Below, one piece after another: positions 4,977-23,440 of a stretch of DNA of 24,074 nucleotides. The stretch is taken from positions 1-24,074 of IMG/VR virus record IMGVR_UViG_3300007640_000236; one strand, written 5' to 3'. Each line of letters begins with the position of its first letter. Position 1 is the first letter of the stretch. The DNA is from a virus. A program made the translations under genes and the position numbers. A model generated the notes under the pieces. It was not told the origin of the DNA, made no database searches, and saw only the letters and a program-made list of their open reading frames with translations.

Positions 4977-6722
4977 ATGACTGTAGAGAACGGAAATAAA
5001 ATGGCTAACACATACTACGAAGGGCCTAAGCTGCCTATTTCCATCGAAATTGATGAAATAAAATACCGAGATGGGGATGAAACCTTTGACGGTAAGATTC
5101 GACGACTAGCTCGTTCGATGTCTGATAATGCTGAACACGAAATGGAGTTGCAAGAGATTTTCGGTAATCTTCGTTTCCTGCCTGCAGGTCGTGTTCAGAA
5201 TGCTATGGGTTCGCGTAAAATCACTAGTGCATATAATTGCTTTGTATCAGGTGAAATCGAAGACTCAATGGATGCGATTATGACCCGTGCTGCGGAAGCT
5301 GCCGAGACAATGCGTCGTGGAGGTGGTATTGGCTATGACTTCTCTAAGCTACGACCAAAAGGGGCTTTGATTAAATCTCTACAGTCCAAAGCCTCTGGTC
5401 CCGTTAGCTTTATGGGTATCTATGATGCTGTATGTCAAACTATTGCATCATCAGGTCATCGCCGTGGTGCTCAAATGGGGGTTCTCCGTGTAGACCACCC
5501 AGATATCTTTGAGTTCCTACGAGCAAAACGAAATTCAGACAAGCTTACAGGATTTAACGTGTCTGTCGGTGTTACTGACCTCTTTATGGAGACACTTAAG
5601 AAAGACGACGACAGCTTCGACTTAGTATTCGACGGTGTTGTCTATCGTACAGTATCTGCTCGTGAGCTATGGGACGAGATTATGCTGTCTACTTGGGATT
5701 GGGCTGAACCCGGTGTCTTATTCATTGACTGTATTAACTCTCAAAACAACCTATGGTATATCGAAACTATCGGTACAACAAATCCGTGCGGCGAACAACC
5801 ACTTCCGCCAAATGGTGCTTGTCTTCTAGGCTCATTCAATGTTGTTTCTTACCTAGAAAAGAAGGGTGATGCATGGGTATTTGATTATACTAAGTTCAAA
5901 GCAGATATCCCTCATATTGTCCGTGCTATGGATAATGTTATTGACCGTACCATTTATCCACTTAAGGCTCAAGAAGATGAAGCTAAATCAAAGCGGCGTA
6001 TGGGGCTTGGTCTAACAGGTGCTGCAAACGCAGGTGAGATGCTCGGCTTCAAGTATGGCTCCGAGGAATTCCTTGAGTGGCTGGAAGGTATTCTTAAACT
6101 ACTTCGTAACGGCACTTACCGTGCTTCTTCCGACTTGGCTGCTGAAAAAGGAGCTTTTCCTCTTTGGGACGCTAAATGGCTAGACTCTGGTTTTGCTAAG
6201 ACACTACCATACCGTCTCCGTAAGCGAATCAAAGAGCAGGGTATGCGTAACTCTCACCTAACATCTATTGCGCCTACTGGTACTATTAGCTTGGTAGCTG
6301 AGAATGTGTCTAGTGGTATTGAGCCTGTGTTCTCTCACTACTACGACCGCACTATCCAAACCTTCGAAGGTCCAAAAGTAGAACGAGTATCTGATTTTGC
6401 TTATCGTAATGGCGTGAAAGGTGTTACTGCGAATGAGCTATCTGTCAAAGACCATGTTGCGGTATTGGCTCTATGCCAACACTATGTTGATAGTGCTGTA
6501 AGTAAAACCTGTAACGTCGGTGATGATGTCACCTTTGAAGAGTTCAAGGATGTTTACTACAATGCTTGGGAACTAGGCTGCAAAGGTATTACAACATTCC
6601 GAGCAGCAGGTAAGCGTTATGGTATCCTCAATGAAGTGAAGGAAGAAGCAACCGAAGAAGAAGAAGGTGCGGAAGCTTGCTTTATTGACCCAGTAACAGG
6701 TCAAAAGGGGTGTAGTCTGTAA
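4977..6722 (+). CDS. nrdJ: Class II (adenosylcobalamin-dependent) ribonucleotide reductase
   Basis: A 581-residue catalytic subunit that reduces ribonucleotides to deoxyribonucleotides. The active-site segment NPCGEQPLPPNGACLLGSFN has Asn269, the thiyl-radical Cys271 and Glu273. The redox-active pair is likely the Cys of SAYNCFVSG near the N-terminus and the Cys of AVSKTCNV. GCKGITTFRAAGK near the C-terminus is the class II form; the YY pair of class I is absent, and no small subunit (NrdB) gene is nearby. A C-terminal cysteine pair (Cys568 and Cys579) would carry electrons from a thioredoxin or glutaredoxin; a glutaredoxin lies at 11381. The length is at the short end for the class. It requires B12 as adenosylcobalamin. 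The ribosome site AAGAGGT at 4966-4972 decides the start. Confidence 0.9.
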   Translation: MTVENGNKMANTYYEGPKLPISIEIDEIKYRDGDETFDGKIRRLARSMSDNAEHEMELQEIFGNLRFLPAGRVQNAMGSRKITSAYNCFVSGEIEDSMDAIMTRAAEAAETMRRGGGIGYDFSKLRPKGALIKSLQSKASGPVSFMGIYDAVCQTIASSGHRRGAQMGVLRVDHPDIFEFLRAKRNSDKLTGFNVSVGVTDLFMETLKKDDDSFDLVFDGVVYRTVSARELWDEIMLSTWDWAEPGVLFIDCINSQNNLWYIETIGTTNPCGEQPLPPNGACLLGSFNVVSYLEKKGDAWVFDYTKFKADIPHIVRAMDNVIDRTIYPLKAQEDEAKSKRRMGLGLTGAANAGEMLGFKYGSEEFLEWLEGILKLLRNGTYRASSDLAAEKGAFPLWDAKWLDSGFAKTLPYRLRKRIKEQGMRNSHLTSIAPTGTISLVAENVSSGIEPVFSHYYDRTIQTFEGPKVERVSDFAYRNGVKGVTANELSVKDHVAVLALCQHYVDSAVSKTCNVGDDVTFEEFKDVYYNAWELGCKGITTFRAAGKRYGILNEVKEEATEEEEGAEACFIDPVTGQKGCSL

Positions 6723-6889: not shown

Positions 6890-6931
6890 CTATAGCCTGA
6901 ATAAGATTCCAAACAACCAGAGGAAATGGAA

Positions 6932-7633
6932 ATGTTTAAGAACATTATTACAACTGTCGCCATCTTTACTGGCTCCACTATTGGGGCTTTTAGTGAGGTA
7001 ATTGACTATATGGAACACTCAATGTACGGTGAGGTGGTTCTATTCGCGGGTAAGATTGAAGAAGGATCTTCTGATCGCCTAGAGGTGTTCCTCACTACTC
7101 ATCCTACTGCAAAATCAATCATTCTTGTGTCACCGGGCGGTTCTAGCGAAGAGGGATATAAAATCGCTGAAGTCCTATCAGATCATAGTATGACTGCTAT
7201 TGTACCTGACGGTTACACCTGTCTGAGTGCCTGTGCAGTCGGGTTTATTGGGGCAAATAACCATGTTGTAGATGGTATCCTTGGTTTCCATAATGCGTTT
7301 CTATCGGATTCTGGCCTCTTTTTGGCTGACCTCCATGAAGCTCTGGGGGGTTCCTCTAAAACAGCTCTAATCCTATTTGGTCAGTACCTTGGTGCAAAGT
7401 CAACGGTATTCTTTATTAAGAGTGGCTTTGAGCTGGAGCTTCCGATCATTATCGCCGGGTTCACTAACCCTAGTACTTTCCTCGTATTCACGTCTACCGA
7501 GGAGCTATACCAGTTTAAAGCAGCTACTAGTAATATTGGCAGCTACACTGTTAGTAATGATTTCATTGATTTTATCTGGATTCAGGATCACCTGTGGGGA
7601 TCTGAGAAACTTTCAGAGTATGAAAAGGATTAA
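6932..7633 (+). CDS. Secreted ClpP-fold protein (COG3904-like periplasmic protease homologue)
   Basis: A 233-residue protein. The start at ATG 6932 is preferred over ATG 6926 because AGAGGAA ends directly before 6926 and gives a 6-nt gap to 6932. Residues 1-21 form a signal peptide (Lys3, a hydrophobic core, cleavage expected near AFS-EV). The crotonase/ClpP-like core shows SPGG at 67-70 (oxyanion region), Ser99 inside CLSAC (97-101) as nucleophile and His120 in GFH, the arrangement seen in COG3904 periplasmic proteins, which also carry the paired cysteines around the Ser. It should act in the periplasm as a serine peptidase, or as an inactive scaffold. It opens the envelope operon; the ExbB-like gene follows after 4 nt. 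Confidence 0.7.
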   Translation: MFKNIITTVAIFTGSTIGAFSEVIDYMEHSMYGEVVLFAGKIEEGSSDRLEVFLTTHPTAKSIILVSPGGSSEEGYKIAEVLSDHSMTAIVPDGYTCLSACAVGFIGANNHVVDGILGFHNAFLSDSGLFLADLHEALGGSSKTALILFGQYLGAKSTVFFIKSGFELELPIIIAGFTNPSTFLVFTSTEELYQFKAATSNIGSYTVSNDFIDFIWIQDHLWGSEKLSEYEKD

Positions 7634-7637
7634 ACCC

Positions 7638-8081
7638 ATGAACACTGCCCGCTTTTGGAAGTTTTGGACAGTAGAAGTACTTTTACTAGCAGCCCTAGCG
7701 ATTGCTCTTGTATACTATGACGTATACACATTCCTGCTTGACAACGATTTCACTTATATTTCGATTGTCAACCTAACTATCCTAACCCTTAGCTCTTTTT
7801 GGGTTGGATTCGATATCGCCAACGGAAGGACCAAGGGTCGTGATACTCAGTGGTTCCTAGCAGATTCTGTCCTATCTTTAGGAATGGTAGGGACCCTTTT
7901 TGGGTTCCTTATCGTCCTGTACTCAACCTTTCATGGGATTGATGTTGGAGATACTGAATCTATGAAAAAGGCAATTGAGACTCTAGCTAGCGGAATGGGT
8001 ACCGCATTGATTACCTCTCTTGTTGGCCTGATCGCTTCTATCGTGATGAAGCTCCAACTTGTAATTCTTGAGGAACACTAA
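7638..8081 (+). CDS. ExbB/TolQ/MotA-like proton channel protein
   Basis: A 147-residue membrane protein. The frame is open from 7377 but the ATG at 7638 has AAGGAT 7 nt upstream and follows the previous stop by 4 nt. Four hydrophobic segments are visible at about residues 12-34, 41-60, 72-98 and 115-140. The last two carry the family signature: SLGMVGTLFGFL, then ASGMGTALITSLVGLIASI, matching the Gly-Thr and small-residue patterns of TolQ/ExbB channel helices. In such motors five copies surround two ExbD/TolR/MotB helices and use proton flow to do work on the envelope. It is shorter than ExbB or TolQ and lacks their long cytoplasmic loop. The partner gene follows after 2 nt. Confidence 0.8.
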   Translation: MNTARFWKFWTVEVLLLAALAIALVYYDVYTFLLDNDFTYISIVNLTILTLSSFWVGFDIANGRTKGRDTQWFLADSVLSLGMVGTLFGFLIVLYSTFHGIDVGDTESMKKAIETLASGMGTALITSLVGLIASIVMKLQLVILEEH

Positions 8082-8083
8082 CC

Positions 8084-8671
8084 ATGAGGAAGTACTCAAG
8101 CAATCTTGCATTTGTGGATCTACTTTTCAATCTTCTGGTAGGTTTTACATCTCTGTTAATTCTTGCTTTCCTCATGATCAACCCTATCTCGAAGACAGGT
8201 GAGGTGACACCCCCTGTTAAAGCCTTTGTGGAAATTAAATGGGACTCGGAGAGTATCAGGGATATTGATCTTTTTGTAAGGGGTCCTGACGGTAATGTAG
8301 TATTTTATGGTAATAAGGACGGGGCTTTCATGATCCTAGATCGTGATGACTTGGGCCTTTCTAATGACTCGTATCAGGTAAATGGTAAGAAAGTAATCAT
8401 CAAGCGTAACTACGAGATTACTAACTTTACAGATCTACCTCCTGGAGAGTACGTAATCGCTGTATTCTACTTCTCTGCTATCGGTGAACCACTAGATGTA
8501 GATTTCAGTATTCGGACAGTTTCTCCTCACCATGTGGTTTACGAGGGTACTGTTGAGGGGTTGACCCCGAGGAAAGAGGTTACTGTCGTATCCTTTGTGG
8601 TAGATGAAATGGGAAACATCTCTGACCTAAATACAGAGTTGCAAATCCCAATTACAGGGAGAAAAAGGTAA
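8084..8671 (+). CDS. ExbD/TolR-like protein with unusual periplasmic beta domain
   Basis: A 195-residue protein. Residues about 8-35 (FVDLLFNLLVGFTSLLILAF) are a single membrane helix with Asp12 at its N-terminal end, the place of the proton-binding Asp of ExbD, TolR and MotB. The rest, about 150 residues, is predicted periplasmic and beta-rich. It contains a segment like IKWDSESIRDIDLFVRGPDG followed by PPGEYVIAVFYFS, reminiscent of the DUF2135/YfaP-type domain (DxDLhV…PdG, pGtYxV); this match is from memory. It is neither the usual ExbD/TolR domain nor the OmpA-type peptidoglycan domain of MotB. With the preceding gene it should form a proton-driven motor. What it pulls on is unknown. Confidence 0.7.
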   Translation: MRKYSSNLAFVDLLFNLLVGFTSLLILAFLMINPISKTGEVTPPVKAFVEIKWDSESIRDIDLFVRGPDGNVVFYGNKDGAFMILDRDDLGLSNDSYQVNGKKVIIKRNYEITNFTDLPPGEYVIAVFYFSAIGEPLDVDFSIRTVSPHHVVYEGTVEGLTPRKEVTVVSFVVDEMGNISDLNTELQIPITGRKR

Positions 8672-9100
8672 ATGGCTATCGTAACAGTACTTTGGTGCTT
8701 TGTTGCGCTATCGATGATCACTCTCACATACACTTCTGAAACCTACAGGATCATCAAACTCATTGCACTTCCAGTTTTTCTAATTGCTTCTTTAGTGTCT
8801 TACATCTTTTATCTAGAAGACCGAGGAAATCCTTCTGTAGGATACATCCCGGAAAACTCACAGTATGTTTTCCACCGGGTTACTAACGAGGAGACTATTG
8901 TGATCTGGATTACAACAGAAAAAGGAGACAGGCTCTATGTCATTCCCTACTCACGGGAGTCCGCGAAAGAACTAGAGGGGGCAAGGGAGAAGTCCGAGGA
9001 AGGGGAACTTCAACGGGTAGAAAACAAAGGAGATAACTCTCAAGTGAAAACTGATGATTGGGAACCTCCTGATCAAAGTGGTCCGCCAAACAAGGGATGA
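8672..9100 (+). CDS. Two-TM protein with long acidic tail
   Basis: A 142-residue protein starting right after the preceding stop, with AAAAAGGT upstream. Two hydrophobic helices span about residues 3-20 and 27-47, followed by a soluble part of about 95 residues. Residues about 60-92 look like a small beta domain (YVFHRVTNEETIVIWITTE). The last 45 residues are highly charged and probably disordered, ending in PPDQSGPPNKG. It lies between the motor genes and the transporter and overlaps the latter's alternative start. It may link the motor to the transporter, but that is guesswork from position. Confidence 0.6.
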   Translation: MAIVTVLWCFVALSMITLTYTSETYRIIKLIALPVFLIASLVSYIFYLEDRGNPSVGYIPENSQYVFHRVTNEETIVIWITTEKGDRLYVIPYSRESAKELEGAREKSEEGELQRVENKGDNSQVKTDDWEPPDQSGPPNKG

Positions 9101-9105
9101 TCTCT

Positions 9106-10083
9106 ATGTTCAATTTCTTCAAAACTAAAGAATGGTTTATCTGGTCTTGGGGTGGTGCAGCTGTAATTGTTGCATCACTTTGGTTTCAAGTTCAGCTAGA
9201 CGTAGCTATTAATGAGTGGTTCGGCGGTTTCTACGATCTCATACAAACTGCGCTCAGCGGTGAAAGCTCCGTGACTATGGGAGAGTATATCACAGGTTTA
9301 CTTAGCTTTGGTAAACTCGCAGGGGTTTATATCGCTGTAGCCTTATCCATTTCTTTCTTTACATCGCATTGGCTATTCCGGTGGCGTACTTCTATGGTTC
9401 AGAGGTACCATGAACTGTTCGATAAAGCTCGTCATATCGAGAATGCTAGTCAAAGGGTTCAAGAAGATACTGTTAAGTTCTCTAGGATCATGGAAGGTTT
9501 AGGTACCTCCTTCGTAGAAGCTATCATGATTCTTGTCGCCTTCTTCCCTATCCTAATGGGGTTGTCCTCTGGTCTTCAAGTTATGTTCTTCGGGGAGTGG
9601 GAGTATGGTCTTGTATCTGCTGCCATTTTATGGTCTGTCGGTATTACTATTGTCCTTCTTGTTGTAGGACAGCTACTACGACTAGTTAGTATCGAGTATG
9701 ACATTCAGGCTCGTGAAGCTTCTTACCGTAAGCTTCTTGTTATTGCTGAAGACGATGTTACTATTCGGCCTAAGCGTCTAAATGAACTCTTCGCGGAGGT
9801 CCGCTCTATTCACTTTAAGAACTATGCTAGGTATGCATGGTTTAATGTGGCTCGGTTATCATGCCTTCAAGCTAACGTTCTAGTTGGTTACGTTGTCCTA
9901 GGTCCAGCCATCGTAGCAGGTTCTATCACCTTAGGGGTAATGCAACAAATTCTAAGGGCTTTCGGTAAAGTTGAAGGTTCGCTAATGTACCTGTTCAAGT
10001 CTTGGTCAACTATCATCGAACTAATCTCTGTTTACAAACGTCTCAAGGAGTTTGAGAATGCAATTTATGAAAAAACTATCTGA
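9106..10083 (+). CDS. SbmA/BacA-family peptide (or cobalamin) transporter, short form
   Basis: A 325-residue inner-membrane protein (start at ATG 9106, AAGGG 9 nt upstream; ATG 9097 is alternative). It resembles E. coli SbmA along most of its length: VAINEWFGGFYDLIQTAL, SHWLFRWRTSM, HIENASQRVQEDT, ASYRKLLVIAEDD, GPAIVAGSITLGVMQQI and SWSTIIELISVYKRL all have close SbmA counterparts. SbmA is about 406 residues; this copy starts near SbmA residue 80, so roughly the first two membrane helices are missing, and the extreme C-terminus is also short. SbmA and BacA are proton-driven importers of peptides and related compounds; a related mycobacterial protein takes up cobalamin. It has no ATPase domain. 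Its end overlaps the ClpP-like gene by 26 nt. Confidence 0.9.
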   Translation: MFNFFKTKEWFIWSWGGAAVIVASLWFQVQLDVAINEWFGGFYDLIQTALSGESSVTMGEYITGLLSFGKLAGVYIAVALSISFFTSHWLFRWRTSMVQRYHELFDKARHIENASQRVQEDTVKFSRIMEGLGTSFVEAIMILVAFFPILMGLSSGLQVMFFGEWEYGLVSAAILWSVGITIVLLVVGQLLRLVSIEYDIQAREASYRKLLVIAEDDVTIRPKRLNELFAEVRSIHFKNYARYAWFNVARLSCLQANVLVGYVVLGPAIVAGSITLGVMQQILRAFGKVEGSLMYLFKSWSTIIELISVYKRLKEFENAIYEKTI

Positions 10084-15405: not shown

Positions 15406-15849
15406 ATGGCAATTATGGATCGAATTCGTAATGCGAAGAAAGCAGTGTACAACTTTACATCCGCACGTAAGGCTGCTCTAATGAAGGCGATTAAGGCTTC
15501 TGCTGCCGCTCGTAAAGTTAAGAGTGCAGCTGGCACTGTAAAGCGCGGTGTCTCAAAAGCACAAATCAAGGCTAATCGTGTAGTGAACCGTGTAACTGGC
15601 TCCAAGACTTCAGCCCTTAAGAAGCGTCAGCAGGCTAAGGCCACCGTTAAGGGTGCTGTTAAGGGTGCTGTCAAATCAGTACGGAGTACCGTAGGTAAGG
15701 TGGAAGCACGTGGCGGTGTCGCTGCTAAGGTTATCAAGAAGGCTGGCTACTCACAGCGCACTGCTGGTAAGGGTACTAAAAAGGCTCGTGGAAGTAGGGT
15801 CCAACGTGGTCTAAGGAAGACCATCAATCGGCTAAGGAAACAAGGGTAA
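15406..15849 (+). CDS. Highly basic Ala/Lys/Arg-rich protein (histone H1-like)
   Basis: A 147-residue protein made almost wholly of Ala, Lys, Arg, Val, Gly, Ser and Thr, with hardly any acidic residue (one Asp near the start, one Glu near residue 100). Low-complexity segments such as AAARKVKSAAGTVKRG and TVKGAVKGAVKSVRSTVGKV resemble the tail of histone H1 or HctA-like chromatin proteins. It should bind DNA or RNA without sequence preference. Position right after the large terminase gene suggests a virion-internal DNA-condensing protein or a packaging aid. The ribosome site AAGGAA lies 8 nt before the ATG. Confidence 0.6.
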   Translation: MAIMDRIRNAKKAVYNFTSARKAALMKAIKASAAARKVKSAAGTVKRGVSKAQIKANRVVNRVTGSKTSALKKRQQAKATVKGAVKGAVKSVRSTVGKVEARGGVAAKVIKKAGYSQRTAGKGTKKARGSRVQRGLRKTINRLRKQG

Positions 15850-19363: not shown

Positions 19364-20665
19364 ATGACTTACAAGGTAACAGCTAAGAACGACAAGATTT
19401 CAATTAATGTTACCACTACTGATAACAATGTAAATATCGTATCACCAAACCACTCTGTATCTCTATCCCGTACAGGTGGACAGGGTGCTAAAGGTGATTC
19501 TATCACTGATGTTTATGTAACAGAGGGTATCCTCTATGTTGAGGTATCTAACAGCGCGGGAGATGTTGTTGATACAATCAATGCAGGAGACTTTTCTGAG
19601 ATAATCCGTGCTAATATTGTTGTTGGAAACCTATCAGATGTGACAATCTCTGGGTTGTCTACTGACCAAATCTTAAGATACAACAGTGTATCAGGTGATT
19701 GGGAAAACTACTCACTTACTGACGATTTCTATACAGAAACAGAAGTGGACTCACTACTGTCTGGTAAGTCAGATGTTGGCCATACCCATGACGATCGCTA
19801 CTATACTGAAACAGAAGTAAACTCTTTGCTCGCAGGTAAAGAGAACGCCGATGCTACTATCCTTAAAGATGCAGATATCGGTGTTACTGTTCAAGCTTAT
19901 GACGCTACTCTTCTTAATGATGCTGATATTGGTGTCACTGTTCAGGGTTACGATGCAACTATCCTCAAGGATGCTGATATTGGTGTCACTGTTCAGGGTT
20001 ACGATGCAACTATCCTCAAGGATGCTGATATTGGCTCAACAGTGCAAGCTTATGATGCAGGTTTAACAAGCATTGCGGGTCTACCTACAATCGCTGACAA
20101 GATGCTCTATACCACTGGTACAGACACTTGGTCAACAACCTCTCTAACAAGCTACATCAGGGCCCTACTTGATGATCCTGACGCAGTTACTGCTCGTAGC
20201 ACTCTTGGGTTAGTTATTGGTGCAGACGTACAAGCTTATGACCCTAATAACGTCGTAGATGCTGACTATGTTCATACCGATAACAACTTTACAGACTCAT
20301 TGAGAAGTAAACTCATTGGTGTAGAATCAGGTGCTACAGCTGACCAGATCGCTTCCGAGGTTCCATTCCTTAATACAGACTCTGGGTTAATAGCTACAGA
20401 CGTTCAAGAAGCTATCGACGAGGTAGTCGTACTTATAGAGTCTACTACTCTTGGAGATCTATCTGATGTAGCAGATACCGCCTCAATCACAGGCGAAACT
20501 GTAATGTTTGATTCCACAAGTCATACTTGGGTAACACGAAAAGCAACAACAAACGATATTTCTGATATTGACAACACTAACAAAGCCGATGGAGCGGTAT
20601 TAGTGTATAGCTCAACAAGCCAGAAATATGAGTCAAATGTATATTTACAAGGAGGTAGCTTCTAA
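19364..20665 (+). CDS. Tail-fibre-type protein with tandem repeats
   Basis: A 433-residue protein. The N-terminal domain ends in GGQGAKGDS, a short collagen-like stretch common as a hinge in phage fibres. YYTETEVDSLLSGKSDVGHTHDD and a second copy follow, then four 17-residue units of the DATILKDADIGVTVQGY type at residues 163-230, then RSTLGLVIGADVQAYDP and the segments LGDLSDVAD and TNKADGAVLVYSSTSQKY. Such modules form trimeric beta-structured shafts in marine phage fibres. The C-terminal end is not a receptor-binding head that I recognise, so this may be a proximal fibre piece. AGGAGGT stands 6 nt before the ATG. Confidence 0.75.
   Translation: MTYKVTAKNDKISINVTTTDNNVNIVSPNHSVSLSRTGGQGAKGDSITDVYVTEGILYVEVSNSAGDVVDTINAGDFSEIIRANIVVGNLSDVTISGLSTDQILRYNSVSGDWENYSLTDDFYTETEVDSLLSGKSDVGHTHDDRYYTETEVNSLLAGKENADATILKDADIGVTVQAYDATLLNDADIGVTVQGYDATILKDADIGVTVQGYDATILKDADIGSTVQAYDAGLTSIAGLPTIADKMLYTTGTDTWSTTSLTSYIRALLDDPDAVTARSTLGLVIGADVQAYDPNNVVDADYVHTDNNFTDSLRSKLIGVESGATADQIASEVPFLNTDSGLIATDVQEAIDEVVVLIESTTLGDLSDVADTASITGETVMFDSTSHTWVTRKATTNDISDIDNTNKADGAVLVYSSTSQKYESNVYLQGGSF
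19850..20053 (+). repeat. Four 51-nt tandem repeats in the fibre gene
   Basis: Units begin at 19850, 19901, 19952 and 20003, each coding 17 residues. Units 3 and 4 begin identically, and DNA between about 19919 and 20034 is an exact 51-nt periodic copy, while unit 1 differs at several third positions. Recent tandem duplication of one unit is the simplest reading. Confidence 0.9.
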
Positions 20666-22116
20666 TGGCAACCAAAATTATTCTAAAGAAGTCTACCACA
20701 GGTGGCTCAGCCCCCTTAAGCGGTGACTTAGATGTAGGCGAACTAGCCGTAAACCTAGCTGACCGTAAGATCTATGCTAAGAACGGCGGCGGGACTATTA
20801 TCACACTAAATGGTGCTTATGTTGATTCAACAGCACCGGGGAACCCTCAAGAGGGCGACTTATGGTATGACTCTACAAACAATACTCTAAAGTCATACAA
20901 TGGATCTGTTTGGGCAGGTGCAGGCTACTCAACGCTAGGTGCTCTTGAAGATGTGACAATCGATACTATTGCTTCTGGGGAAATCCTTAAGTGGAACGGT
21001 TCTGCATGGGTTAATAATACACTTGCTGAAGCAGGTATCCAACCAGCTGGCTCTTATGCAAGTGCCACACATACCCATTCTATTTCTGATGTGACAGGTC
21101 TACAGACCGCGCTTGATGGAAAATCATCAACATCTCATAACCACACCCTAGACTCTCTAAGCGATACTACTATTACTTCTATCGCTTCAGGCGAGCTTCT
21201 AAAATGGAATGGCACAGCTTGGGTTAATAACACTATTGCAGAAGCTGGTATTCAACCCGCTGGTAGCTATGCTGCAGCTTCCCATACACACACTTTAGAC
21301 TCCTTGAGTAACACAACAATCACCTCTATTGCTTCAGGGGAAATCCTCAAGTGGGATGGTACAGCTTGGGTTAACAATACTCTCGCAGAAGCTGGTATTG
21401 CTGCCTCTTCTCATACACATGCACTAAGTGCTATCACTGATGTAACAGCTACTGCTGCCGAGGTTAACGTTCTTGATGGCATTACTGCAACAACCGCTGA
21501 GTTGAACTATACTGACGGTGTTACTTCAAACATCCAAACTCAGTTGAACGGAAAGGCTTCAACAAGTCATAACCACACCCTAGACTCTCTAAGCGATACT
21601 ACAATCACAGCCAACTCTTCGGGTGAAATCCTAAAGTGGAACGGTACTGCTTGGGTGAATAATACACTGGCAGAGGCAGGTATCCAACCTGCAGGTTCTT
21701 ATCTAACCTCCGAGAGTGATACTCTGGCGACTGTTACTGCCCGTGGTGCTACTACTTCTAACGCCATTGGTATTACTAATAATACCGCATCTTCCTCCAC
21801 AAGTACAGGTGCTCTAACGGTAACAGGTGGTGTCGGTATTGGGGGTGCCCTCAATGTTGGTGGTAACACTATCATCACTGGTAACTTGACTGTTAACGGT
21901 ACAACAACTACAGTTAACTCTAATACTGTCAACATTGGCGACAACATTATTGTTCTTAACGCTGATGAAACAGGTGTCCCTTCTCAAGATGGTGGTATTG
22001 AAATTGAACGTGGTACTTCTTCTAATGTATCTTTCCTTTGGGTTGAAGCTTCTGACCACTGGTCACTTGGCAACCAAACCCTTGCAGATGTTACATTGGA
22101 TGGGGGTTCCTACTAA
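20665..22116 (+). CDS. Tail-fibre-type protein with Mtd-like N-terminus and repeat modules
   Basis: A 483-residue protein starting on the last base of the previous stop, with AAGGAGGT upstream. Residues 1-48 (GELAVNLADRKIYAKNGGGT) form the short N-terminal domain known from major tropism determinant-like phage proteins. Then come four related modules containing ASGEILKWNGSAWVNN and SHTHTLDSL-type segments, where HxH motifs of phage fibres can bind metal ions. NYTDGVTSNIQTQLNGK and the closing domain (GGNTIITGNLTVNGTT … SQDGGIEIERG … HWSLG) are widespread in marine phage fibres. Likely a long trimeric shaft. Module copies share DNA identity: 36 nt at 21135-21170 recur exactly at 21567-21602. 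Confidence 0.75.
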   Translation: MATKIILKKSTTGGSAPLSGDLDVGELAVNLADRKIYAKNGGGTIITLNGAYVDSTAPGNPQEGDLWYDSTNNTLKSYNGSVWAGAGYSTLGALEDVTIDTIASGEILKWNGSAWVNNTLAEAGIQPAGSYASATHTHSISDVTGLQTALDGKSSTSHNHTLDSLSDTTITSIASGELLKWNGTAWVNNTIAEAGIQPAGSYAAASHTHTLDSLSNTTITSIASGEILKWDGTAWVNNTLAEAGIAASSHTHALSAITDVTATAAEVNVLDGITATTAELNYTDGVTSNIQTQLNGKASTSHNHTLDSLSDTTITANSSGEILKWNGTAWVNNTLAEAGIQPAGSYLTSESDTLATVTARGATTSNAIGITNNTASSSTSTGALTVTGGVGIGGALNVGGNTIITGNLTVNGTTTTVNSNTVNIGDNIIVLNADETGVPSQDGGIEIERGTSSNVSFLWVEASDHWSLGNQTLADVTLDGGSY

Positions 22117-22174: not shown

Positions 22175-23440
22175 ATGGCAACCAAGATTATTCATAAAAA
22201 GTCTTCAACAGCTTCCAGCGTACCTGCTTCAGCTAGTTTGGAGCCGGGGGAGCTAGCTGTAAACCTAGCCGATAAGAAAATTTATACAAAGACTACCGGT
22301 GGTACTGTAATTGAGCTTGCTGATGGTGCTAAGCTAGCAGGTATCGAAGCTGGGGCAACCGCTGATCAAACGGCCTCTGAGATTCTAACTGCGATTTTGA
22401 CCGTTGATGGTTCCGGTTCTGGTCTTGATGCTGACACCCTTGACGGCCAACATGCGTCTGCCTTCCTAACAGGGAACCAGACTATTACTCTGTCGGGTGA
22501 CTTAACAGGTTCTGGCACCACTTCGATCAACGCACAGATCGCAGCCAACGTGGTCGGGGCGGATGAGTTGAACGTAACAGGCAACGGTACTACATCACAA
22601 TACCTTCGTAGTGACGGTGATGGGAGCTTCACATGGGAAACCCCACCAGACACTAACACTACCTATAGTGCTGGTAACGGTATTAGCCTCTCAGGGACTA
22701 CATTCAGTGTAGCCGCCGGGACAGGTCTTACACAAGATGCCTCTGGTCTATCTGTAACAGCTAACGGTATTGGTGCTACTCAGCTTAATGTTGTTGGCGA
22801 TGGTACTACTGCTCAGTATCTCCGTAGTGATGGTGATGGTTCGTTCACTTGGGATACACCTACAGACACTACCTACAGTGCTGGTAATGGTATCAGTCTC
22901 TCAGGGACAACCTTTAGTGTAGCTGCTGGTGGTGGTCTTACTCAAGACGCCAGTGGTCTGTCACACTCCGACACTTCCACTCAGGCAAGTGTCGACAACT
23001 CCGGTGCAACTGTCATTCAAGACGTGACTCTGGATACCTATGGCCACGTCACCGCACTTGGCAGTGCTACACTGACGGCTTCGACGGTAGGTGCTGTTGC
23101 TGCAAGTTCCGGCACTGCTACGAACCTGACGTTAGTAGGAACGCCCGTCGAAGACATCTACACTGTCACTGGCACAACTCCCGTTCTGGAGCCTGACAAC
23201 GGTTCTATTCAGGAATGGACGTTGAGTGGTAACTCTACACCGACTGACGGCTTCTCTGCTGGTCAAGCAATCACACTTATGATCGACGATGGTACCGCCT
23301 ACACGATCACTTGGCCGACTACTACTTGGGTGAACAATGGCGGCTCTGCACCCACGCTGGCAACCACTGGGCGTACTGTCATTGCTCTCTGGAAGGTCTC
23401 CACGACGCTGTATGGCGCACTAATTGGGGATGGTTCGTAA
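22175..23440 (+). CDS. Tail-fibre-type protein paralogous at its N-terminus to the previous fibre
   Basis: A 421-residue protein. Its first ~48 residues (GELAVNLADKKIYTKTTGGT) are clearly related to those of the preceding fibre, so both probably attach by the same domain. The middle holds DADTLDGQHASAFL, then two 72-residue units (YLRSDGDGSFTW … TYSAGNGISLSGTTFSVAAG … LTQDASGLS) whose starts are 216 nt apart. The last ~160 residues (from DNAs near 22960) differ in base composition from the rest and end in a beta-rich domain (AGQAITLMIDDGTAYTITW … TLYGALIGDGS) typical of a fibre tip. The stop shares a base with the next ATG. Confidence 0.75.
   Translation: MATKIIHKKSSTASSVPASASLEPGELAVNLADKKIYTKTTGGTVIELADGAKLAGIEAGATADQTASEILTAILTVDGSGSGLDADTLDGQHASAFLTGNQTITLSGDLTGSGTTSINAQIAANVVGADELNVTGNGTTSQYLRSDGDGSFTWETPPDTNTTYSAGNGISLSGTTFSVAAGTGLTQDASGLSVTANGIGATQLNVVGDGTTAQYLRSDGDGSFTWDTPTDTTYSAGNGISLSGTTFSVAAGGGLTQDASGLSHSDTSTQASVDNSGATVIQDVTLDTYGHVTALGSATLTASTVGAVAASSGTATNLTLVGTPVEDIYTVTGTTPVLEPDNGSIQEWTLSGNSTPTDGFSAGQAITLMIDDGTAYTITWPTTTWVNNGGSAPTLATTGRTVIALWKVSTTLYGALIGDGS

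Follow-up and report, generated by a model that had tools for sequence, protein, structure and literature searches.

A putative three-protein envelope motor with a DUF2135/YfaP-related output domain in phages and bacteria

Motors of the ExbB/MotA type whose role is known carry few kinds of output domain, namely ExbD/TolR domains working with TonB or TolA, and OmpA-like peptidoglycan binders. A gene in a marine phage genome raises the question of whether the same engine has been coupled to something else. The window analyzed here is a 24,074-base IMG/VR virus record that encodes a B12-dependent ribonucleotide reductase (RNR), a primase/helicase and a terminase. Its open reading frame at 8084–8671 on the plus strand, the coordinates of which were confirmed exactly, specifies a protein of 195 amino acids. 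The first-pass annotation had described the product as an ExbD/MotB-type helix with an aspartate at position 12, followed by a DUF2135/YfaP-like beta domain unlike those of ExbD, TolR or MotB, and had argued that a different output domain implies a different partner. What does such a protein do, and together with which partner? Taking architecture and role together, we assign a probability of about one half to the reading that it serves as the ion-coupled subunit in an envelope motor made of three proteins. The architecture by itself, comprising a motor channel, an Asp-bearing helix, a DUF2135-related output domain and a third subunit, is in our view highly probable.

The gene lies in a tightly packed group on the plus strand between positions 6926 and 10083. 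The first gene of this group (6926–7633) encodes a ClpP-like serine protease candidate with a signal-peptide-like start and a match to phrog_26024 ('protease', 2.1e-9); it is a putative periplasmic protease, and the motifs SPGG, CLSACA and GFHNAF were noted in it. It is followed by an ExbB/TolQ/ZorA-like channel subunit of 147 amino acids (7638–8081), the ExbD/ZorB-like motor subunit under study (8084–8671), a proposed third subunit of 142 amino acids (8672–9100) and an SbmA/BacA-like inner-membrane importer (9097–10083). The latter is full-length (PF05992, E = 2.4e-123; NCBIfam PRK12369, 385.3 bits versus a cut-off of 385). The intergenic gaps are 4, 2, 0 and −4 nt, the third gene and the SbmA/BacA gene overlapping by 4 nt. 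These genes form an operon, with gaps like those of a translationally coupled one. A second ClpP gene comes after the SbmA/BacA gene, and the RNR gene (4977–6722) is located upstream of the operon; no cobalamin riboswitch or other RNA was found in the window. Elsewhere in the window, a Lys/Ala-rich, histone-like basic protein of 147 amino acids (15406–15849) is encoded between the terminase and the structural genes, and two paralogous repeat-rich proteins (20665–22116 and 22175–23440) share the start MATKII.KKS and are probably of the tail-fibre type.

By its sequence, the 7638–8081 protein belongs to the ExbB/TolQ/MotA/ZorA superfamily. Four transmembrane helices are predicted, the Pfam model MotA_ExbB reached 23.5 bits against a gathering threshold of 22.9 when 7449–8081 was scanned, and the best matches in PADLOC and NCBIfam were ZorA2 (3.9e-11) and ZorA_4 (4.5e-6), respectively. 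Translation likely starts at the ATG at 7638, just after the stop codon of the ClpP-like gene, and not at the listed TTG at 7377. Both pore helices carry polar Thr/Ser residues, as is characteristic of the channel superfamily, although this feature is weaker in Rhizobium phages. Thr86 (in a VGT motif) and Thr126 are kept in all 44 marine-phage sequences and in 45–46 of 49 bacterial ones; in the Rhizobium phages position 86 is a threonine in 5/8 channels, and position 126 varies too. Three bacterial homologues (L132, L138 and L139), which we would guess from their sequences to be betaproteobacterial, have lysine in place of Thr86.

The channel, the 8084–8671 protein and the third protein constitute a conserved trio. 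Relatives with the same order of genes are encoded at 63 IMG/VR loci and in 27 records of phages, every one a phage of Rhizobium or Sinorhizobium, with phage 16-3 and members of the Pootjesviridae among them. In phage 16-3 of Sinorhizobium meliloti, p038, p040 and p042 appear to represent the trio. The isolates that bear the trio have genomes of about 59–171 kb and comprise the temperate phage 16-3 as well as large myoviruses. This recurrence is far beyond chance, and the ORF at 8084–8671 is a real gene. Strong matches in bacteria came from approximately 55 of the 385 genomes that were sampled within one class (Alphaproteobacteria) and from 16 of 398 genomes sampled across the phylum. In Alphaproteobacteria, and in a few other bacteria, the trio is an operon of the chromosome. 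At 50 cellular loci (L073–L106 and L126–L141), some of which represent one place counted twice, the channel gene is present in 50/50 and the third gene in 48/50; of the exceptions, L105 is where a contig ends, and none was detected at L140. The bacterial trio sits amid ordinary bacterial genes and hence is not a matter of prophages alone. A tree built from 62 sequences, and rooted by midpoint only, places the bacteria in two main groups and splits the Rhizobium phages between two positions, one of which adjoins a bacterial sequence. This split placement suggests that the unit was probably exchanged between phages and their hosts more than once. The trio was not described in the open-licence literature searched, and its second and third proteins were in no family library searched.

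The bacterial neighborhoods provide a lead to function. In a Pelagibacteraceae MAG (L074, belonging to the alphaproteobacterial class), the trio comes last in a cluster with genes for a siderophore-type TonB-dependent receptor, for the permease (PedC-type) and ATPase of an ABC system, for TIGR03866, a propeller protein of PQQ-dependent catabolism, and for the binding protein TIGR03863. Together with the SbmA importer of the window, the TonB receptor and the ABC importer point by association to envelope transport. To analyze the linkage to PQQ, the positions of TIGR03866 and PF01011 (PQQ enzymes) were determined in 36 genomes that carry the trio. In statistics that ignore shared ancestry, and thus treat related genomes as independent, the trio was within 12 kb of PQQ-dehydrogenase-cluster genes in 17 of the 36 genomes versus 1.0 expected at random (0 of 200,000 random-placement simulations reached 17), and TIGR03866 was present in 12/22 trio genomes versus 13/168 others (odds ratio 14.3, p = 5e-7; the 190 genomes of this comparison are assumed to be the leading 190 of the 385 drawn). 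No such linkage was seen in the second bacterial clade (L145–L150) or in phages. One bacterial group (L082, L084, L087, L088 and L090) has a conserved gene for a lipoprotein-like product (YFPL.GG..W.Y.I) after the trio, the L087 copy of which had no NCBIfam match. Two papers on lanthanides mention exbB/exbD only generically (PMC10848612; PMC9301485).

These distributions bear on a rather unlikely alternative, namely that the trio serves superinfection exclusion or counter-defence, either as a Zorya-like motor that senses, through its beta domain, the envelope perturbation caused by another phage and sets off a response, or by jamming the ExbB, TolQ or ZorA of the host through mixed complexes. 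Membrane-located exclusion genes are frequent in phages, the channel is matched best by ZorA models, and the trio occurs in very different phages beside early or middle genes and not beside tail or lysis genes, all of which would fit. However, there is no adjoining ZorC/D/E or nuclease gene, no ZorA tail and no peptidoglycan-binding domain, and many bacteria carry the trio as a normal operon of their chromosome, linked to PQQ and not to defence.

A structure model of the 8084–8671 protein was built with 33 homologues (mean pLDDT 87.5). It predicts a helix spanning residues 3–32, inside which Asp12 is located. All distinct phage homologues have the aspartate (42/42 from marine phages and 8/8 from Rhizobium phages, 50/50 in total), and the proposed N-terminal helix with Asp12 is borne out. 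The helix is single and N-terminal and has a conserved Asp, as in ExbD/TolR (PF02472), and the register of Asp12 (FVD) equals that of the ExbD aspartate in the motif TPFVDVMLVLL. Among bacteria the membrane Asp is replaced in 14 of 49 distinct sequences, in 12 of them by valine; the valine variants make up most of the loci L104 and L127–L137 and come mostly from large genomes. The channel threonines are mostly kept in these Asp-replaced homologues. Either another residue carries the charge in the Asp-less versions, or they are no longer run by protons. By analogy with known motors, the trio would likely be driven by protons, although approximately 14/49 bacterial versions have no Asp. These natural variants amount to a built-in test of the need for proton flow. 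In three contigs (L023:3161–4614, L069:4568–5435 and L070:3781–4648) the channel gene is duplicated, and residues 1–31 of the ExbD-like protein form the start of the second copy, reflecting either a real fusion or an assembly artefact at a tandem duplication.

What follows the helix does not resemble the familiar motors. No model in Pfam, NCBIfam, PADLOC or PHROG matched the 8084–8671 protein above threshold. In the structure model, residues 47–183 consist essentially of strands only, forming an all-beta domain, and the ExbD/TolR profile aligned by hhalign to only about 12 residues around the Asp (1.5%, not significant). A standard ExbD/TolR periplasmic domain was therefore rejected, as was an OmpA-like peptidoglycan-binding domain of the MotB/ZorB kind, for which there was neither a Pfam or PADLOC match nor the alpha/beta layout of OmpA. 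Structure prediction of the whole protein, which the first-pass annotation had proposed as a check, thus agrees with its claim of a domain that is not of the ExbD, TolR or MotB type. The suggested relation to DUF2135/YfaP was likewise upheld, as a profile of 58 homologues compared with eight DUF2135/YfaP sequences by hhalign scored 97.9% (P = 5.7e-13, 88 columns), versus 0.2% in a control with reversed columns. The motif D-x-DL-x-V-x-x-P, a later Asp and Glu, and a GxYxVxxN strand align between the two. The gathering cut-off of DUF2135 (PF09906) itself was not reached, 2/30 members giving a match with a best E of 0.05. Furthermore, none of the DUF2135 proteins met here, which were VIT-domain proteins or YfaP, is fused to a motor helix.

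The predicted fold of the domain is TerD-like (PF02342). VIA-align of the predicted model returned TerD structures with Z scores of 11.2 (3ibz), 10.3 (2qng), 9.9 (2qz7) and 8.9 (2kxt, a Ca2+-binding TerD), with 132–140 residues aligned at an rmsd of 3.4–4.1. A radial-spoke chain (7jtk, Z 9.6) and an integrative model (9a6r, Z 10.2) also matched, and the next unrelated folds had Z < 6. Foldseek ranked 2qng (E = 4.1e-5) and 2qz7 at the top, and its strong matches were TerD-like only. TerD homology at the sequence level was rejected, with hhalign giving 0.9%, the same as the reversed control, and no Pfam match; hence, the likeness to TerD is a statement on fold only. TerD is a cytoplasmic protein without a membrane anchor. 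A search of a viral structure library returned as best match an uncharacterised 713-residue Cellulophaga phage protein (E = 4.3e-6), which was uninformative, and a profile search of PDB sequences gave nothing significant, the best match being a virion protein with a DVD..V..P motif (E = 0.046). Phages and bacteria share five near-invariant acidic residues in the domain (D60, D62, D88, D89 and E111). These are suggestive of a metal site, which may bind Ca2+. One contig (L151:7018–8254, G366:C7) encodes two adjoining copies of the protein, the second of which (7718–8254) has a signal-peptide-like start in place of the membrane helix and would be a soluble periplasmic beta domain. This paralogue supports a periplasmic location of the domain.

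Could the beta domain act without a motor? The trio might be a passive channel or envelope-stress sensor that does no mechanical work, with the TerD-like domain sensing Ca2+ or another metal and the channel acting as a leak or in signalling. The fold would suit such a role, and the acidic cluster is conserved better than the membrane Asp and outlasts it, also in the Asp-less bacteria. Against this stands the presence of the channel threonines and of Asp12 in all marine-phage sequences, as expected of a working ion-coupled motor, and we rate passive sensing as somewhat less probable still than exclusion.

The first-pass annotation had expected a different partner, and a candidate exists in the third gene, which at almost every locus, phage or bacterial, comes after the 8084–8671 gene and the product of which had no match in any family library tried. 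This third protein is predicted to have a transmembrane hairpin (residues 2–21 and 26–52), followed by a domain of the order beta-beta-beta-alpha-beta-beta with a weak likeness to OB-like barrels (Z of about 5–6.5). The loop between the helices tends to positive charge, suggesting that both ends and the soluble domain are periplasmic. We propose that it is the partner, TonB/TolA-like by position only. NfeD, which the hairpin, the OB-like fold and the ClpP neighbor had suggested as its family, was rejected (hhalign 0.3%).

In phages of the window type the order is RNR, ClpP-like protease, channel, 8084–8671 protein, third protein, SbmA/BacA and ClpP. SbmA/BacA is kept in most of these phages and missing in some. 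Several Rhizobium phages instead have a trypsin/HtrA-like protease near the trio (that of L005 matches HtrA models), and in other phages, including large T4-like ones, the trio stands alone. Thus, the trio is the core, and SbmA and the periplasmic ClpP-like gene, missing from many trio phages, are lineage-specific. The RNRs upstream of the operon are either NrdJ-like or RTPR-like. In window-type phages, the four RNRs near the trio that were classified all belong to B12-dependent types; different kinds precede the same operon in related phages (the window, L017, L032 and L036). A role in lysis or its timing, with the channel dissipating the proton-motive force or the protease and beta domain acting on the envelope late, is improbable, for although the operon of the phage combines small membrane proteins with a protease that may be periplasmic, the trio lies among replication and nucleotide genes and not with an endolysin or spanin, the lysozyme of the Rhizobium phages is encoded elsewhere, and free-living bacteria have chromosomal homologues.

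The three-protein envelope motor could work as follows. Five channel subunits would surround two copies of the Asp12 helix, and protons passing Asp12 would turn or shift the helix pair. The beta domain in the periplasm would receive this movement and act on the third protein, perhaps while its acidic cluster holds Ca2+ or a lanthanide. What the motor drives would be a process of the envelope, with transport (uptake) more likely than anchoring to peptidoglycan; a specific transport role is nonetheless tentative. In bacteria the unit may serve the periplasmic PQQ-alcohol-dehydrogenase pathway or the uptake of its cofactor or metal, and the linkage to PQQ-dehydrogenase clusters makes this a concrete and easily testable role. 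Phages would have captured the unit, and the lineage of the window would have added the periplasmic protease and the SbmA/BacA importer, additions that point to a probable aid to uptake during infection, be it of peptides or of B12 for the B12-dependent RNR. The B12 idea is weak, since B12-dependent RNRs may be common in marine phages.

How does this unit compare with known systems? In ExbB-ExbD, TolQ-TolR, MotA-MotB and ZorA-ZorB, protons pass an Asp and turn or shift a helix pair inside a ring of channel subunits. Akin to TonB-ExbB-ExbD and TolA-TolQ-TolR, the three genes would provide a channel, a single-helix Asp subunit and another protein of the inner membrane that has a domain in the periplasm, and the channel threonines are conserved in the same motifs as in ExbB/TolQ (VGT..GF and T.L.GL). 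In contrast to ExbD/TolR, canonical forms of which are also present in 40/41 sampled genomes of the alphaproteobacterial class, the second protein has an all-beta, DUF2135/TerD-like domain in the periplasm. Unlike TonB and TolA, which have a one-helix anchor and a long rod, the third protein combines a hairpin with a small OB-like domain, and no periplasm-spanning rod is evident in it. Zorya is approached in that ZorA models score best for the channel and in the ion-coupled two-protein motor with an Asp helix; however, the channel of 147 residues has no long cytoplasmic ZorA tail and an OmpA-like peptidoglycan-binding domain is absent. A Zorya system proper was rejected on account of the missing tail and ZorC/D/E, the neighbors being the protease, the third subunit, SbmA and ClpP. 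With another output domain and a third subunit of its own, in phages and bacteria, the trio would represent the same engine re-tooled. It is possible, though on balance doubtful, that Ton, Tol, Mot and Zor are joined by the trio as one more class of envelope machine that runs on the proton-motive force. In Alphaproteobacteria it would power the handling of PQQ, Ca2+ or lanthanides for periplasmic quinoprotein dehydrogenases, and the phages of these bacteria would have captured it repeatedly for uptake across the envelope during infection.
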